A DNA stretch of 64,000 nt. It comes from Solitalea longa (GTDB taxonomy: Bacteria; Bacteroidota; Bacteroidia; Sphingobacteriales; Sphingobacteriaceae). The position numbers and the translations under genes are program-made. Shown one piece after another: positions 50,697 to 62,310 of this stretch. The notes under the pieces are model-generated. The model was not told where the DNA came from and made no database searches. It saw only the letters and a list, made by a program, of their open reading frames with translations. The stretch spans positions 62,001-126,000 of the forward strand of contig NZ_PQVF01000009.1 of the NCBI RefSeq assembly GCF_002920915.1. Direction: 5' to 3'. Position 1 is the stretch's first letter, and each line of letters starts with the position of its first letter.

Positions 50697-51923
50697 ATGA
50701 AAAGGATCCAACTTTCTATTCTATTGCTATTTACAATATTGCCTTTAATTTCCTTTGCCCAAAGTAATTTCGTTGACGGCTATATCATAAAACTGAATGG
50801 CGATACAGTAAAAGGAAAGCTTGACGATAGAAACTGGAATATTACTCCAAAACAAATTACATTTAGAGATTCTTCTGTACACTCTTTTAATGCAAACGAA
50901 ATAGCTGGTTTTGGAAGCAGCAGTGATCACTACCGAAGCTTCAACCTAAAACTAAATCTCACCAATGAAAACCTACGATCGAATATAAAAACGGAAGAAG
51001 GACAGACTGTTAAGGACACTACCCTTTTCTTGCGTTTTTTAATTGAAGGGGATCAGCGATTATATGCTTTTATGGACAAAGACGATGTCGCTCACTTTTT
51101 CATTATCAACAACCAAAACGCTGCTACGGAGCTTATTCATTACCGTAGATTAGTAGTTGTAAACAATGTGCAATATGTACAGGAAGTGAACACTTATCGC
51201 GATCAACTGCTCGATCTATTGAACCCTGACAATAAATTGACCTGGAAGATCAAGCGATCGAACTATTACGAGGATGAACTTATACAAATTTTTGAAGTAT
51301 ATAACCGTTCAAAAGGAATTGTAAAAGCCGAAAAAGTTACCAAAAGGAAAGAGAAATTCATTGATTATTACCTTATTGCAGGGATTACAAGCGCCCAAAC
51401 CTCTTATTACTTGGAATCCATCTATGGTAATTTCGATTATAAACTTGGCAATTCCTTAACTCCATCTGTTGGAGCTAGTCTTACAGTTTATATTCCTAGA
51501 AACCGAATGCAGTTCTCATTGGATAATCAACTTTTATTTGTGAGCTATAATATGGAATCTGAAAAGTATAAATCGCCTTATTCCAACTCGAATACCTTTG
51601 TAAGATCAAGCTCATCATATATTAAGATGTTTAATATTTTCAAATATCAATATCCTAAGGGATTAATAAGACCGTATATTGGCGCAGGCATTAGTTTTGC
51701 CGCGAGATTAGCGTCAAAATCAGAATTCAATATTATATATCCGCTTGGAAGTTCTGAAACTTATAGAGCAGTATACGGTAACAAGAAATTTGAACCCGGA
51801 TATGCTTTCTTATTGGGAACAGCTTATAAGAGATATAAACTAGAGTTCAGAAATGATTATGCCATAAATAGTTTAAATTCGACTACTTATTATCAACTGA
51901 ATTTGTGTTATAGGTTAAGATAA
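50697..51923 (+). CDS. Predicted outer-membrane beta-barrel protein
   Basis: The 408-residue protein has a signal peptide (ISFAQ) and a soluble N-terminal domain with the repeated strand pattern DGYIIKLNGDTVKGKLDD. The C-terminal half alternates hydrophobic and polar residues and ends YYQLNLCYRLR, an outer-membrane strand. No transport or enzyme motif is visible. Family members of this shape are frequent in Bacteroidota and mostly uncharacterised. Confidence 0.83.
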   Translation: MKRIQLSILLLFTILPLISFAQSNFVDGYIIKLNGDTVKGKLDDRNWNITPKQITFRDSSVHSFNANEIAGFGSSSDHYRSFNLKLNLTNENLRSNIKTEEGQTVKDTTLFLRFLIEGDQRLYAFMDKDDVAHFFIINNQNAATELIHYRRLVVVNNVQYVQEVNTYRDQLLDLLNPDNKLTWKIKRSNYYEDELIQIFEVYNRSKGIVKAEKVTKRKEKFIDYYLIAGITSAQTSYYLESIYGNFDYKLGNSLTPSVGASLTVYIPRNRMQFSLDNQLLFVSYNMESEKYKSPYSNSNTFVRSSSSYIKMFNIFKYQYPKGLIRPYIGAGISFAARLASKSEFNIIYPLGSSETYRAVYGNKKFEPGYAFLLGTAYKRYKLEFRNDYAINSLNSTTYYQLNLCYRLR

Positions 51924-56599: not shown

Positions 56600-57196
56600 T
56601 TAAGAATAGATAATTTGAATAAGCAGATCAAGCATAACATCACAGGTTTCCTTTACCTCAATCAGCTTGTTTACTTTAGGATTCAAACCAAAATCTTTGA
56701 AATTGATTGGCTGTATTGCATGAATAGCAACTGGTGAAGATTCTTCCTTTAATTGATAAGGAATAAGATACACTTTTTTCACCCCTGCAATGGTTACTGC
56801 AATTTTGGCTTGACCATTTACGTTGGGGTTATTATTTATTATTGAAAGTGAAAGTAGTTCGATTTTACAATCAGGAAACTCCTTGCATTTCATCACTTTC
56901 CGAAAATCTTTGTCCATCAAAAAGTTTCCGGATTTAAACTTTTCAACTTCAAGCTGTAAACCGCTAATTGCCGCAATTAATTGGTCAGTATTAAAATTTG
57001 GATCCACCTTAAAATCTCGGGCCAAATCCCCTTTATATTTAAAAGTATAACTGCATAATGAAGTTTTTCCTTTTATTTTCACAGAACTTTCGGGCAAAAC
57101 CTTGATTAAAACTTGCTGTGCATTTCCAGCTACAACACACAAAAGAAATATGGCTACTATACCCGAAAATGCCAATATCCGTTTGAGTTGTAACAT
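56600..57196 (-). CDS. Secreted YceI-like protein, cassette 1 (gene 3)
   Basis: With the start at ATG 57196 the product is 198 residues with a signal peptide (ILAFSGIVAIFLLCVVAGNAQ). It resembles YceI loosely: VLIKVLPESSVKIKGKTS, SGNFLMDKDFRKVMKC and FPDCKIELLSL. Three conserved cysteines (MKC, FPDC, KETC) are shared with its paralogue at 59449. The ATG at 57232 lies inside a terminator hairpin and is not used. It ends just before the pst operon promoter region. Function is unknown. Confidence 0.8.
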   Translation of the reverse strand: MLQLKRILAFSGIVAIFLLCVVAGNAQQVLIKVLPESSVKIKGKTSLCSYTFKYKGDLARDFKVDPNFNTDQLIAAISGLQLEVEKFKSGNFLMDKDFRKVMKCKEFPDCKIELLSLSIINNNPNVNGQAKIAVTIAGVKKVYLIPYQLKEESSPVAIHAIQPINFKDFGLNPKVNKLIEVKETCDVMLDLLIQIIYS

Positions 57197-57213
57197 GTTT
57201 AAGAGAGCTATTG

Positions 57214-57244
57214 AAAAAAAGCGGCAGGCCAAACGGCCTGCCGC
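57214..57244 (-). terminator. Strong internal hairpin of cassette 1
   Basis: GCGGCAGGCC-aaac-GGCCTGCCGC, a perfect 10-bp GC-rich stem, is followed on the minus strand by TTTTTTT. It lies between the barrel gene and the next gene of the same cassette. Confidence 0.9.
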
Positions 57245-57264
57245 AACTATAATTTGTGTTTGTG

Positions 57265-58611
57265 TTAGAATGAAACTGCTGCCTCAATTACAATACCATT
57301 GAATTTACCTCCACTGCGATAATCTGCGGTCGGGAAATCTTCGTATTTCTGCTCAACATATTCAGCTTTCATTAAAATATTTTTGGTAATAAACCAACCG
57401 GCTGCAGCAGCAAATCTGTTTATTTTAACATCGTCAGTAAATGTAGTTCCGGCTAGCCTTCCACTAGCTGCGTTATAACGCGCTCCAACATAAACACACT
57501 CTTTTGGACCAAACCTGTACACGCCTTCAATAGCATATTGATCGAAACTTCTATCAGTGGATTCTGAAGGGCCTCTGCCTTTTGCTGATTCATAGGTTCC
57601 AAAAAATTCAAAACCCGAATATTTAAGAAAAGCATTCAGCATAAAGGAATTTACCTGTTGGCTAAAGCCCGGATTTACACGTCCTGAGAAGGCAATTGCG
57701 GTACCCGCGGATGTTACAGGGGTTGGAGTAACTGTGGTATAATATTTCTCCATTGCATTTTGATAGTTAGAACCGGTTCTATCGCCACCGTATAAGGTTA
57801 ATGTATTGTTACCTGCATTTGAGTTATTGTACCAGCTACCCGACACACGAACTCTTAACTGAGCGGTCATTTGCCTATCAAAACCTGCTTTAAAAATTAT
57901 AGAAGGGGCCTTTTTTGCATCAGGGTTGGCAGTAGTTGACTTAACAGAGTCAACATTACCTTTAATAGCACCTCCGGTAAGACCTATCATTCCAAAAAAG
58001 CCATTTTTCTGAACCAAAACATCCCCTCCAATCTCTGTTGCAAAGGCATCGAGAATTAGACCTTCCATGAATGGGTTTTGAAGGGTATGTCCACCATCTG
58101 ATCTGCGGAAATGCATATCGCCATAATTCACTTCATAGTGACCAGCTTTAATGGTAGTAATACTCATAAGCTTATCCCAAATTTCCCCCTTAAAAGGAAG
58201 CTTATCAATTTGCAGAAAACCTCCTTTAACCCAGGTTTCGTTATGGTGACGAGATGATAAATAAGTAGTTACATTTAACCGCATTCCATCATATAATTGC
58301 GCATCGATAAACAAGTTAGCCTGAGCGGTCATAAAGCCAGGAGATATTGGATACAAATAATTGCTTTGTCCGTACCCGTTCAATGTTGCGGTTGGATTCT
58401 CATGCTTTAAACTTTGAAATTGCTGGGTAAATCCGGCACCCAATTTAAGTTGTAAGCCATCATATGGCGTTGAATCCGCTTTACCGGTTTCAAACACGTT
58501 AATACCTGTTTGATCATAGGGACGCATGCTTTGGATTTTATTGCTAAACTGAGCCAAGGCAGCGTCAGTTGTTATTGCAAGAACTGTTAGTAGTAATAAA
58601 ATTTTTTTCAT
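57265..58611 (-). CDS. Predicted outer-membrane beta-barrel protein, cassette 1 (gene 2)
   Basis: The 448-residue protein has a signal peptide (LAQFSNK), no lipobox, and alternating strand patterns from residue ~45 to the end, closing with GIVIEAAVSF, an outer-membrane terminal strand with a final Phe. Conserved segments include YEVNYGDMHFRRSDGGHTLQNP and a GDRTGSNYQNAMEK loop. I do not recognise a named porin family. It is a close paralogue of the protein at 60150. Confidence 0.82.
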   Translation of the reverse strand: MKKILLLLTVLAITTDAALAQFSNKIQSMRPYDQTGINVFETGKADSTPYDGLQLKLGAGFTQQFQSLKHENPTATLNGYGQSNYLYPISPGFMTAQANLFIDAQLYDGMRLNVTTYLSSRHHNETWVKGGFLQIDKLPFKGEIWDKLMSITTIKAGHYEVNYGDMHFRRSDGGHTLQNPFMEGLILDAFATEIGGDVLVQKNGFFGMIGLTGGAIKGNVDSVKSTTANPDAKKAPSIIFKAGFDRQMTAQLRVRVSGSWYNNSNAGNNTLTLYGGDRTGSNYQNAMEKYYTTVTPTPVTSAGTAIAFSGRVNPGFSQQVNSFMLNAFLKYSGFEFFGTYESAKGRGPSESTDRSFDQYAIEGVYRFGPKECVYVGARYNAASGRLAGTTFTDDVKINRFAAAAGWFITKNILMKAEYVEQKYEDFPTADYRSGGKFNGIVIEAAVSF

Positions 58612-58637
58612 AGCCGTTTAATTTAATTGCTTAATAT

Positions 58638-59219
58638 TTATTTAAATAAAAGGTCAAAATCAACCGTTATATCGTCACCGGTTTTAATAGCCCCCATCAT
58701 TGCTTTAGGAGGAGTTACTTTAAATTCTGTCATTTTAAAGGCCTTTTTTCCTGTAATTTTAATTGAACCATTAGGCTGAACTTTTGCAACACCGGTAACT
58801 GGTATATCTTTGGTTACAGTGGCAATTCGCACTGTTGCAATAGCGTTCACTTCTCCATTGGCTCCAATGGAATTCACTTTTTTCAGAACGAAAGTAATTT
58901 GAGGATTTTTTTCGGCGTCAAGAGCTTTGTAAACATTCTTATCCATTCCTGAATCGTAATATTTACCGTCTTCCTTTAAGCTCCGCATGGATTTAACATT
59001 CATGATCAAATCCATTGTTTTAATCGTTTTAATGGTTGTGCCGGCTTTTTCGGCATCTAAGTTTCCGGAAACTTGCTCTACCCGGCAGCGCCAGTCGTGT
59101 AATGTAGATGTACCGTTAACCATTACTTTACTTTCAGTGGGAGAAAGTTTTTGGTGCTGTGCATTCACTAACATTGGTAATGACAAAATGCACGAGATCA
59201 AAAGCGTTTTGATATTCAT
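58638..59219 (-). CDS. YceI family periplasmic protein, cassette 1 (gene 1)
   Basis: The 193-residue protein has a signal peptide (LVNAQ). The YceI lipocalin-like fold is indicated by VMVNGTSTLHDWRC, KTMDLIMNVKSM, KEDGKYYDSGMDK and NPQITFVLKKV. YceI proteins bind amphiphilic or isoprenoid-like molecules; the ligand here is unknown. It is nearly collinear with the paralogue at 61546 and is the first gene of its cassette. Confidence 0.92.
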   Translation of the reverse strand: MNIKTLLISCILSLPMLVNAQHQKLSPTESKVMVNGTSTLHDWRCRVEQVSGNLDAEKAGTTIKTIKTMDLIMNVKSMRSLKEDGKYYDSGMDKNVYKALDAEKNPQITFVLKKVNSIGANGEVNAIATVRIATVTKDIPVTGVAKVQPNGSIKITGKKAFKMTEFKVTPPKAMMGAIKTGDDITVDFDLLFK

Positions 59220-59448
59220 AAGTTTACCACCTTTCTATTTATTTATTTATTGTTTAAAAAAACACAAGCAAAATGAAGATAGAATATGACTTAATATGAT
59301 ATGAGTAAAGGCCCTTGTATATAAATATACATTAAAATATTTATAACAAACTGATTTAAAGGAACAAAACAATAACCTTGCTAATAAACAAGAGAAATAA
59401 AGAGAACCCCAGAAATGTTAATTATGGGAACTTTTAAGGAAGTATTAA

Positions 59449-60072
59449 TTAAAGGTGGGTAATTTGAATAAGAAGATTGAGACTCACCTCACAGGTATCT
59501 TTTATTTCAACCAGCTTATTCACTTCGGCCGGATTCAATCCAAAATCTTTAAAGCTTATTGGTTGTATTGCATTTATGGTCAATTGGGAAGATGTTTCCT
59601 TCAGCTGAAATGGTATTAGGTATAGTTTCTTTATCCCGGCAATTGTAACTGCAATTTTAGCTTGTCCGGTTACATTTAAGCCACTCGATGAGGTGGCTGA
59701 AATAGATAGCAATTCTATTTTGCAATAAGGAAAATCGTCACATTTCATAACCTTCCTAAAATCTCTATCCATCAAAAAGTTCCCTGATTTAAACTTTTCA
59801 ATTTCTAATTGCAAACCGGTTATTGAATTAACTAATTGCTCCTTATTAAAATTTGTAGAAACTTTAAAGCTTCGGCTCAAATCACCTTTATAAGTAAATG
59901 AATAGCCAATTAAGGAAGTTTCTCCTTTAATTTTCACCTTGCTATCGGGAAGAATTTTAATTAAAACCTGGTGATTATCAGCACGTTGCTGCGAATTCAC
60001 CAGAAAAGGATCAAAGAATGTCAATACAGCCACTATTCCACACATTCGAAATATCCACATTAGCTGTATCAT
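59449..60072 (-). CDS. Secreted YceI-like protein, cassette 2 (gene 3)
   Basis: The 207-residue paralogue of the 56600 gene has signal region MIQLMWIFRMCGIVAVLTFF and conserves VLIKILPDSKVKIKGETS, SGNFLMDRDFRKVMKC, FPYCKIELLSI and the late KDTCEVSLNLLIQI. The spacing of the cysteines is the same. It ends the distal cassette. Function is unknown. Confidence 0.8.
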   Translation of the reverse strand: MIQLMWIFRMCGIVAVLTFFDPFLVNSQQRADNHQVLIKILPDSKVKIKGETSLIGYSFTYKGDLSRSFKVSTNFNKEQLVNSITGLQLEIEKFKSGNFLMDRDFRKVMKCDDFPYCKIELLSISATSSSGLNVTGQAKIAVTIAGIKKLYLIPFQLKETSSQLTINAIQPISFKDFGLNPAEVNKLVEIKDTCEVSLNLLIQITHL

Positions 60073-60093
60073 ATATATTAACCTATTATTTAG

Positions 60094-60124
60094 AAAAAAG
60101 CGGCAGGGTTTAAACCCTGCCGCT
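60094..60124 (-). terminator. Strong internal hairpin of cassette 2
   Basis: A perfect 26-base palindrome (AGCGGCAGGGTTT and its complement, 60099-60124) is followed on the minus strand by TTTTTTCTA. It lies at the same place as the hairpin of cassette 1. Confidence 0.9.
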
Positions 60125-60149
60125 AGTATATGAAGAATTTGTGTTTGTT

Positions 60150-61481
60150 TTAGAATGAAACTGCAGCTTCAACAACTACACCGTTGAATTTACCTCCACT
60201 GCGATAATCAGCAGTTGGGAAATCTTTGTATTGTTGATCAACATACTCAGCTTTCATCAAGATGTTTTTAGTAATAAACCATCCTGCTGCTCCAGCAAAT
60301 CTGTTAACTTTAACATCTTCTGTAAAACCTGCTAATCTTGAAGTTGCTGCATTGTAACGAGCACCTACGAAAAGGTTTTCTTTTGCACCAAATCTGTAAA
60401 TACCTTCTACTGCGTATTGGCTAGATTTTCTGTCTGTAAGATCTGCTGCTCCTCTACCATTGGCAGTTTCGTAAGTTCCTAAGAATTCAAAACCTGAATA
60501 TTTTACAAAAGCGTTTAACATGATAGCGTCAACTTGCATGCTGTAACCTGGGTTTAAACGTCCAGAGAAAGCAATAGCAGTACTAGCATTTGCAGTGGTT
60601 CCTGATGAATAGGCTTTCTCCATAGCATTTTGATAGTTAGAACCTGATCTGTCACCACCATACAATGTTAAAGATCCGTTACCAGCATTTGAGTTGTGGT
60701 ACCAGCTACCTGAGAAACGAACTCTTAAGTCTGAGGTTAATTGTTTATCAATACCACCTTTAAAGATAAGAGAAGGTGCTTTTTGAGCATCAGGGTTAGA
60801 AGCAGCTGTTTTTACCGAGTCAACATTACCTTTAATCGCACCACCAGTAACACCGATCATTCCGAAGATACCATTTTTTTGTACGAAGATATCACCACCG
60901 ATCTCTGTTGCAAAGGCATCCATAATTAAGCCTTCCATGAATGGATTTTGAAGTGTATGACCAGCGTCTGATCTGCGGAAGTGCATATCACCGTAGTTCA
61001 CTTCGTAGTGACCAGCTCTAATTGTGGTGTATTGCATGATGTTGTCTAAAAGCGCGCTTTTAAACGGAAGTTTGTCAATTTGCAAATACCCGCCTTTAAC
61101 CCAAGTTTCATTATGGTGACGTGCCGATAAATAAGTAGTTACATTTAAACGGATACCATCATATAATTGGGCATCGATGAATAAGTTTGCCTGAGCGGTC
61201 ATAAAACCTGGTGACAAAGCATATAATTTATTGGCTTGTTTGTCAGCACTATTGATCGCAGTTGGATTTTGATGCTTCAAACTTTGAAATTGTTGTGTAA
61301 AGCCGGCTCCTAGTTTCAGTTGCATTCCTTCATACGGAATCGTATCAGTTTTACCGGTTTCAAATATGTTTACGCCTCTTTGGTCATAAGGCCGCATGTT
61401 TTGAATTTTATTGCTAAACTGTGCCATTGCACCACCTGAACCCAAAACCATGGCTGTTACTAATAATAAAACTTTTTTCAT
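60150..61481 (-). CDS. Predicted outer-membrane beta-barrel protein, cassette 2 (gene 2)
   Basis: The 443-residue protein is a full-length paralogue of the 57265 gene. It has a signal peptide (MAQFSNK), the same YEVNYGDMHFRRSDAGHT segment and the terminal strand GVVVEAAVSF. Small indels occur in the loop regions (around residue 75 and 290), as expected for surface loops. It may have a porin-like or ligand-capture role; no evidence favours either. Confidence 0.82.
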   Translation of the reverse strand: MKKVLLLVTAMVLGSGGAMAQFSNKIQNMRPYDQRGVNIFETGKTDTIPYEGMQLKLGAGFTQQFQSLKHQNPTAINSADKQANKLYALSPGFMTAQANLFIDAQLYDGIRLNVTTYLSARHHNETWVKGGYLQIDKLPFKSALLDNIMQYTTIRAGHYEVNYGDMHFRRSDAGHTLQNPFMEGLIMDAFATEIGGDIFVQKNGIFGMIGVTGGAIKGNVDSVKTAASNPDAQKAPSLIFKGGIDKQLTSDLRVRFSGSWYHNSNAGNGSLTLYGGDRSGSNYQNAMEKAYSSGTTANASTAIAFSGRLNPGYSMQVDAIMLNAFVKYSGFEFLGTYETANGRGAADLTDRKSSQYAVEGIYRFGAKENLFVGARYNAATSRLAGFTEDVKVNRFAGAAGWFITKNILMKAEYVDQQYKDFPTADYRSGGKFNGVVVEAAVSF

Positions 61482-61545
61482 ATTCTTAATTTTTAATTGA
61501 AAAACTTTATTGATTTAAATTGAATTTTAATTGGTAAGCTTTTGA

Positions 61546-62124
61546 TTATTTAAATAGAAGATCAAAATCAACAGTTATATCATCTCCGGTTTTAATCGCA
61601 CCCAGCATTGCTTTTGGAGGATCCACTTTAAAATCAGTCATTTTAAAGGCTTTTTTTCCGGTAATCTTAACTGAGCCGTTTGGCAGTACTTTAGCTACTC
61701 CTACAACTGGCAGATCCTTGGCTACTCCTGCAATTTTCACAGTGGCAATTGCATTTACTTCGCCGTTGGCACCTATTGAGTTAATTTTCTTCAGGACGAA
61801 AGTGATCTGAGGATTTTTGTCTGCATCAAGCGCCTTGTAAACATTCTTATCCATTCCTGAATCGTAGTATTTACCGTCTTCTTTTAAGCTTTTCATCGAT
61901 TTCACAATCATCGTCACATCCATCAACTTAATGGATTTAATGGTGGTTCCTGATTTTTCAACATCTAGGTTTCCAGAAAGTTGTTCCACCTTGCAGCGCC
62001 AGTCATGTAATGTTGAAGTTCCGTTAACCATTACTTTACTTTCGTTAGGTGAAAGCTTTTGTTGTGCATTTACTAAAATTGGTAATGATAATAAGCACAT
62101 GCACAAAAGGGTTCTGAAATTCAT
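61546..62124 (-). CDS. YceI family periplasmic protein, cassette 2 (gene 1)
   Basis: The 192-residue YceI protein starts at ATG 62124 (MNFRTLLCMCLLSL); the ATG at 62133 adds only MRR and does not match the paralogue. It conserves VMVNGTSTLHDWRC, KEDGKYYDSGMDK and NPQITFVLKKI. It is the first gene of the upstream cassette and is divergent from metH. Confidence 0.92.
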   Translation of the reverse strand: MNFRTLLCMCLLSLPILVNAQQKLSPNESKVMVNGTSTLHDWRCKVEQLSGNLDVEKSGTTIKSIKLMDVTMIVKSMKSLKEDGKYYDSGMDKNVYKALDADKNPQITFVLKKINSIGANGEVNAIATVKIAGVAKDLPVVGVAKVLPNGSVKITGKKAFKMTDFKVDPPKAMLGAIKTGDDITVDFDLLFK

Positions 62125-62310
62125 ACGTCTCATCTTTCTTTGTTATTTGTTACAACACAAAAGACAACAGAATTAAATTTTAAAAACATGATTAAAGTCA
62201 TTATGTAAATTTTACACTTAGATATTGCTTAACAAGCTGATTTACAATGTCAAAAAATCAACAATTGAAGTAAAAAACCTCATTTTTCATCCAGATAAAA
62301 AAATAAAAAC

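Follow-up and report, generated by a model that had tools for sequence, protein, structure and literature searches.

The 64-kb window, by which we mean the whole stretch of Solitalea DNA analysed here, carries a lineage-specific tandem duplication of a gene module conserved in Bacteroidota. The module encodes a YceI protein (Y1), a predicted outer-membrane porin (B) and a divergent YceI-like protein (Y2). We regard it as probable that this is a low-oxygen envelope module, which was duplicated here and whose second copy escaped that control. YceI proteins are very widespread, and the module ties them to an unnamed porin family and to a low-oxygen promoter element. This tie, found in many Bacteroidota families, offers a concrete setting in which to ask for the solute and the ligand that count under oxygen shortage. 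Moreover, the Solitalea tandem constitutes a natural experiment, since one copy keeps and the other has lost the presumed oxygen control.

The preliminary description of this DNA had proposed two neighbouring YceI / barrel / YceI-like cassettes having order, strand and hairpin position in common. This arrangement was confirmed, as all six open reading frames (ORFs) lie on the minus strand of the window, with unchanged coordinates. Transcription runs from high to low coordinates through Y1, B and Y2 of copy 1 and then through Y1, B and Y2 of copy 2, and both cassettes sit between metH and the pst operon. In copy 1, Y1 (61546..62124, with an alternative ORF start possible at 62133) encodes a YceI-family periplasmic lipocalin with a signal peptide (...VNA-QQ), B (60150..61481) encodes an outer-membrane protein of predicted 16-stranded porin fold with a C-terminal Phe, and Y2 (59449..60072) encodes the divergent YceI lipocalin. 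Copy 2 consists of Y1 (58638..59219), B (57265..58611) and Y2 (56600..57196), the last of which likely starts with the ATG at 57196 rather than with the TTG at 57232.

The pairwise alignment and dN/dS calculation suggested in the preliminary description gave 85% amino acid and 80% nucleotide identity for the Y1 pair (dN/dS 0.08), 76% and 76% for the B pair (0.11) and 65% and 70% for the Y2 pair (0.19), with dS values of 1.1-1.3 across the three gene pairs. Silent sites are nearly saturated between the copies, and all three pairs are under purifying selection. The Y2 pair is indeed furthest apart, as had been noticed; the Y1 and B pairs, which had been taken to be very close, are not near-identical at this dS. 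Nucleotide identities of 70-80% together with the dS values establish an old duplication, as opposed to near-identical copies or an assembly artefact. In the trees of B and of Y1 the window copies group together, apart from their congeners, with 100/98 support each. The Y2 tree gave no usable dating because of a very long branch. Concerning the congeners, S. agri carries one cassette at the corresponding site (metH, then Y1, B and Y2, then pstS) and a second species (G002) carries a single cassette beside metH without pst; a third Solitalea congener has no B gene at all. As both B-bearing congeners hold one cassette beside metH, the tandem arose in the lineage of the window. Gene conversion between the window copies is a possible alternative source of their grouping in the trees. 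Tandem cassettes were found in no other sampled genome, and the few genomes with two B genes carry them on different contigs.

The preliminary description made its proposal depend on synteny in relatives, and throughout Bacteroidota the triplet is indeed kept, in single copy. Scanning contigs of bacterial genomes yielded 242 relatives of B, and the order and strand of Y1, B and Y2 are kept in most of the 95 loci examined; the loci in this and the other sets are related, and all the counts are of non-independent events. In a phylum-wide sample of 296 genomes from 140 genera, 81 genomes and 45 genera have B. A Y1-type YceI gene lies near B in 26 of 29 loci from this sample, and many of these loci contain another YceI-type gene as well. 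Y2 is located upstream of Y1 and not downstream of B in some genomes of Pedobacter and related bacteria (L057, L064, L075, L037), where the gene of a 135-amino-acid membrane protein is close by. This protein, which has no Pfam family, adjoins the cassette in 43 loci (e.g. L090:6983-7390), and its gene has its own Crp/FNR box in several Bacteroidota loci; it is absent beside the window cassettes. A search of open-licence papers for a link of YceI to oxygen, to FNR, to cbb3 or to a porin in this phylum found no description of the module.

Both Y1 copies pass the curated cut-off of the Pfam YceI family (PF04264, 23.7 bits), with 43.9 bits for copy 1 and 42.5 bits for copy 2. By passing it they resemble the YceI family proteins of E. 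coli (YceI), T. thermophilus (TT1927b), Burkholderia (BcnA/BcnB) and Neisseria (GNA1030). Y2, unlike YceI family members proper, is at or below Pfam detection: copy 2, aligned with the Y2 family, reaches 23.1 bits and copy 1 is without a match. Likeness to the family is nevertheless evident from the N-terminal signal peptides, present in both Y1 and Y2, and from the AlphaFold model of copy 1 Y2 (pLDDT 87.9). Its best PDB matches all belong to the YceI family (BcnA, TT1927b), and all 18 matches with E<1e-3 are YceI structures, with TM scores of 0.53-0.75 by target length. Y2 is, according to its predicted YceI beta-barrel fold, a divergent YceI lipocalin. Two cysteines, likely forming a disulfide, occupy alignment columns 138 and 179 in 62 of 66 Y2 proteins; the window Y2 copies and that of S. 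agri have Phe and Ser in their place. Octaprenyl compounds and ubiquinone-8 have been reported as ligands of YceI proteins (PMC9113575). The idea of a carrier rests on this reported binding, and by analogy an amphiphilic ligand is plausible for the YceI proteins of the window. The known partner of YceI proteins is cytochrome b561 (LcoA), whereas in the cassette the partner is an outer-membrane porin encoded between two YceI genes.

The AlphaFold model of B from copy 1 (pLDDT 84.6, pTM 0.84) shows 16 strands, so that B is, in its predicted structure, a 16-stranded porin fold. The closest structures are OprO and OprP (Z 25.8), followed by PorB (24.7) and general porins (up to 24.7). B shares with OprP/OprO and the general 16-stranded porins (Omp32, PorB, OmpF; Z 22-26) the predicted barrel and a long conserved third loop. 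It differs from them by a sequence identity of 10-12%, the lack of a Pfam porin match, an extra N-terminal segment, its own near-invariant loop and its fixed YceI partners. No Pfam family (E up to 1), NCBIfam family or PDB sequence match was found for B. Membership in Porin_O_P (OprP/OprO) was considered and dropped on the same Pfam search. The preliminary description had named as its weak point that the barrels might belong to a named porin family with unrelated partners; B lies outside every Pfam and NCBIfam family. With a mean column identity of 58%, B is better conserved than its YceI partners (34-35%). The segment between its strands 152-160 and 192-202 contains many residues that are invariant in 66 sequences (E160, G164, D165, H167, R169, R170, D172, G174, F181, D188), and by analogy to loop 3 of porins this long segment may form the pore constriction. 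A small polar solute, rather than a lipid, is what the conserved polar loop residues suit better, which makes a ligand common to Y1, B and Y2 doubtful. The earlier reading as a small envelope system holds, and the three proteins would cooperate physically.

Between B and Y2 both cassettes contain an intrinsic-terminator-like hairpin with a T run on the minus strand, GCGGCAGGGTTTAAACCCTGCCGC-T6 in copy 1 (60094..60123) and GCGGCAGGCCGTTTGGCCTGCCGC-T7 in copy 2 (57214..57244), at matching positions 3' of B. Each consists of a 24-base palindrome followed by the T run. The two congeners with one cassette have the hairpin too; in the alignment, two of its pairs carry compensatory changes and 100% of the cells are paired. 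A hairpin with a T run occupies the B-Y2 position in 48 of 89 loci, and it therefore probably represents a conserved terminator or attenuator.

Regulation of the module is a new result as compared to the preliminary description, which had neither the promoter box nor its loss in copy 2. Of 82 loci, 57 have a TGA-N6-TCA palindrome in the 300 bp preceding Y1, compared to a mean of 7.3 and a maximum of 15 in shuffled sequences, and the same pattern search found it before B in 10/87 and before Y2 in 12/83 loci. Weight matrix sites are present before Y1 in 54 of 83 loci, before B in 1 of 90 and before Y2 in 7 of 83. The refined motif reads TGA[TC]N4[AG]TCA, with A-rich and T-rich flanks. A distant set of loci showed the box in 14 of 24 (shuffled mean 0.54) and never before B. 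Y1 genes without a box amount to about 30% in the first set and 10/24 in the distant set. Where promoters have multiple sites, the spacing is 22 or 44 bp in 24 of 25 cases, corresponding to roughly two or four turns of the helix. Two or three boxes in a row, spaced by exactly 22 bp, were seen upstream of Y1 in L045, L046, L047, L049, L050, L052, L053, L116 and others. In the window, the Crp/FNR-type box of copy 1, ATGACTTTAATCAT, lies on the minus strand at 62188..62201. According to the promoter alignment it is conserved in S. agri and G002, and with the counts above the FNR-type box of copy 1 is conserved across relatives.

Further boxes in the genome of the window were sought by a pattern search with ATGAYN4RTCAT, using the reversed pattern as control. 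The motif occurs 43 times versus 19 times for the reversed pattern; roughly half of these 43 fall within ORFs and probably arose by chance. Intergenic boxes precede ccoN (cbb3 oxidase), a ccoI-like Cu-ATPase gene, pta, a Usp gene and an L-lactate MFS transporter gene, as well as fasciclin, a CBS/peroxiredoxin pair, a thioredoxin-like gene and another YceI gene. The latter (G000:C1:184080-184726, L138) has its box about 60 bp upstream of the start. Directly upstream of the Cu-ATPase gene, by the cbb3 cluster, a 237-amino-acid Crp/FNR regulator is encoded (CKNCEFRDNSVFC), and its CX2CX8C motif with a further Cys makes it a candidate cluster-type FNR regulator. The cassette of Pedobacter polaris and that of P. 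boryungensis come after ccoP, ccoG and a pair of genes which by eye read as FixH-like and TauE/SafE-like. Elsewhere, neighbouring genes encode Usp, Crp/FNR regulators, PAS kinases, Pta, AckA, CoA-transferases and Zn-alcohol dehydrogenases, and several of them carry the Crp/FNR-type box. The box-sharing genes, the four-cysteine regulator, the adjacency to ccoP and ccoG and these neighbours are marks of a low-oxygen regulon. The core motif is common to several regulators of the Crp/FNR family, including NO sensors, and oxygen as the signal is therefore inferred from the co-regulated genes. The four-cysteine regulator would be a candidate for binding the box, and the cassette would be induced at low oxygen.

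The cassette shares with the FNR/Anr/FixK low-oxygen regulons (fixNOQP/ccoNOQP, ccoI, usp, pta) the TGA-N6-TCA box, the cbb3 and copper ATPase targets and an FNR-like regulator with four cysteines. It differs from them in that a YceI-porin-YceI core target was not found in the open-licence literature searched, and in that the boxes are often arrayed at exact 22-bp steps. Among 60 relatives, ccoN is present in 15/15 B-bearing versus 18/45 B-less genomes (p=3e-5). In the phylum sample it is present in 65/81 genomes with B versus 136/215 without B (p=0.005, uncorrected for relatedness), and 16 B genomes are without a strong ccoN match. A strict dependence on the cbb3 oxidase was hence discarded, as the perfect nesting seen in the 60 relatives broke down at phylum scale.

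In copy 2 the box is decayed. When the promoter is aligned to those of copy 1, S. agri and G002, its remnant, AAGGGCCTTTACTCAT, falls on the minus strand at 59301..59316: the left half TGA is GGG, one base is inserted and the right half TCAT is kept. Even with the threshold relaxed, the site search found no box in the promoter of copy 2. Compared to S. agri, dN is higher for copy 2 than for copy 1 in B (0.260 versus 0.208) and in Y1 (0.243 versus 0.180); Y2 shows the opposite trend (0.379 versus 0.419). With its intact box and lower dN of B and Y1, copy 1 looks like the retained low-oxygen copy. Copy 2, as judged from sequence, looks freed from low-oxygen control while still under purifying selection; the loss of the half box and the faster evolution suggest that it probably works under other conditions.

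In the mechanism that we propose, an FNR-type regulator encoded beside the cbb3 genes would bind TGA[TC]N4[AG]TCA before Y1 as oxygen falls. The transcript would pass Y1 and B up to the terminator-like hairpin, and Y2 would be reached by read-through or from its own start. B would pass a specific small solute over the outer membrane through a pore with the near-invariant loop (about residues 158-192), and Y1 and Y2 may act as periplasmic binding and carrier proteins for an isoprenoid or quinone-like amphiphile. Copy 1, keeping the box and a slower, ancestral-like sequence, would serve this response, and copy 2, with half the box lost and faster evolution, would probably act under other conditions. 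A bolder version, to which we give little credence, sees Y1 and Y2 as shuttles for a quinone-like or isoprenoid electron carrier, linking the inner membrane with channel B. They would thereby build a redox or carrier route across the periplasm that Bacteroidota induce when oxygen is scarce, with the second Solitalea copy freed from oxygen control.

A defence against oxidative damage and lipid peroxidation, in the manner of BcnA and LcoA, would read the YceI proteins as carriers of an antioxidant quinone in the envelope and B as a co-substrate channel, with the box reflecting an oxic/micro-oxic switch. Mutants in BcnA, LcoA and PsrA build up lipid peroxides, and YceI proteins bind ubiquinone-8 (PMC9113575). 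In addition, boxes in the genome of the window lie between the peroxiredoxin and CBS genes and before the thioredoxin-like gene. The BcnA-BcnB-LcoA operon of Burkholderia cenocepacia likewise comprises three genes, for two YceI lipocalins and one membrane protein. However, this membrane protein is an inner-membrane cytochrome, as opposed to the predicted 16-stranded outer-membrane porin of the cassette, and the operon is induced by antibiotics and superoxide, whereas the promoter of the cassette points to low oxygen. A conserved cytochrome b561 partner is lacking: the most frequent neighbour families at 32 loci include none, a single case was seen by eye near a cassette (L088) and none belongs to the window cassette. 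Membership in BcnA-LcoA lipid peroxide detoxification was rejected for want of this linked gene. As the box-sharing genes are, furthermore, mainly respiratory and fermentative, we consider the defence reading improbable. It is likewise unlikely that B is a nutrient porin whose folding or insertion is aided by two ligand-free YceI-fold chaperones. The strict linkage of the YceI genes with B and the better conservation of B agree with such a role, but porins of the 16-strand class fold via the BAM route and are not known to use dedicated lipocalins. The binding of isoprenoids by YceI relatives also argues against it (PMC9113575).

Less probable still is a role in phosphate acquisition, in which the cassette would be an accessory of the adjacent pst operon and B a phosphate porin of the OprP type. 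The preliminary description had taken the adjacency to pst as a hint in this direction. pstS-pstC-pstA-pstB-phoU follow the cassette in the window, pst genes do so likewise in S. agri, and in structure B matches OprO and OprP best. Yet pst adjoins the cassette in these two genomes only, and neither in the other B-bearing congener nor in any other genus examined. The lead of OprP over general porins is about one Z unit (25.8 versus 24.7), B has no Pfam match at E up to 1, and the promoter box points elsewhere, to low oxygen. The hint at phosphate is not supported. Beyond phoU, the window contains a separate outer-membrane beta-barrel gene of the OMP_b-brl_2 type (50697-51923, weak Pfam match), which is also kept beside pst in S. 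agri.
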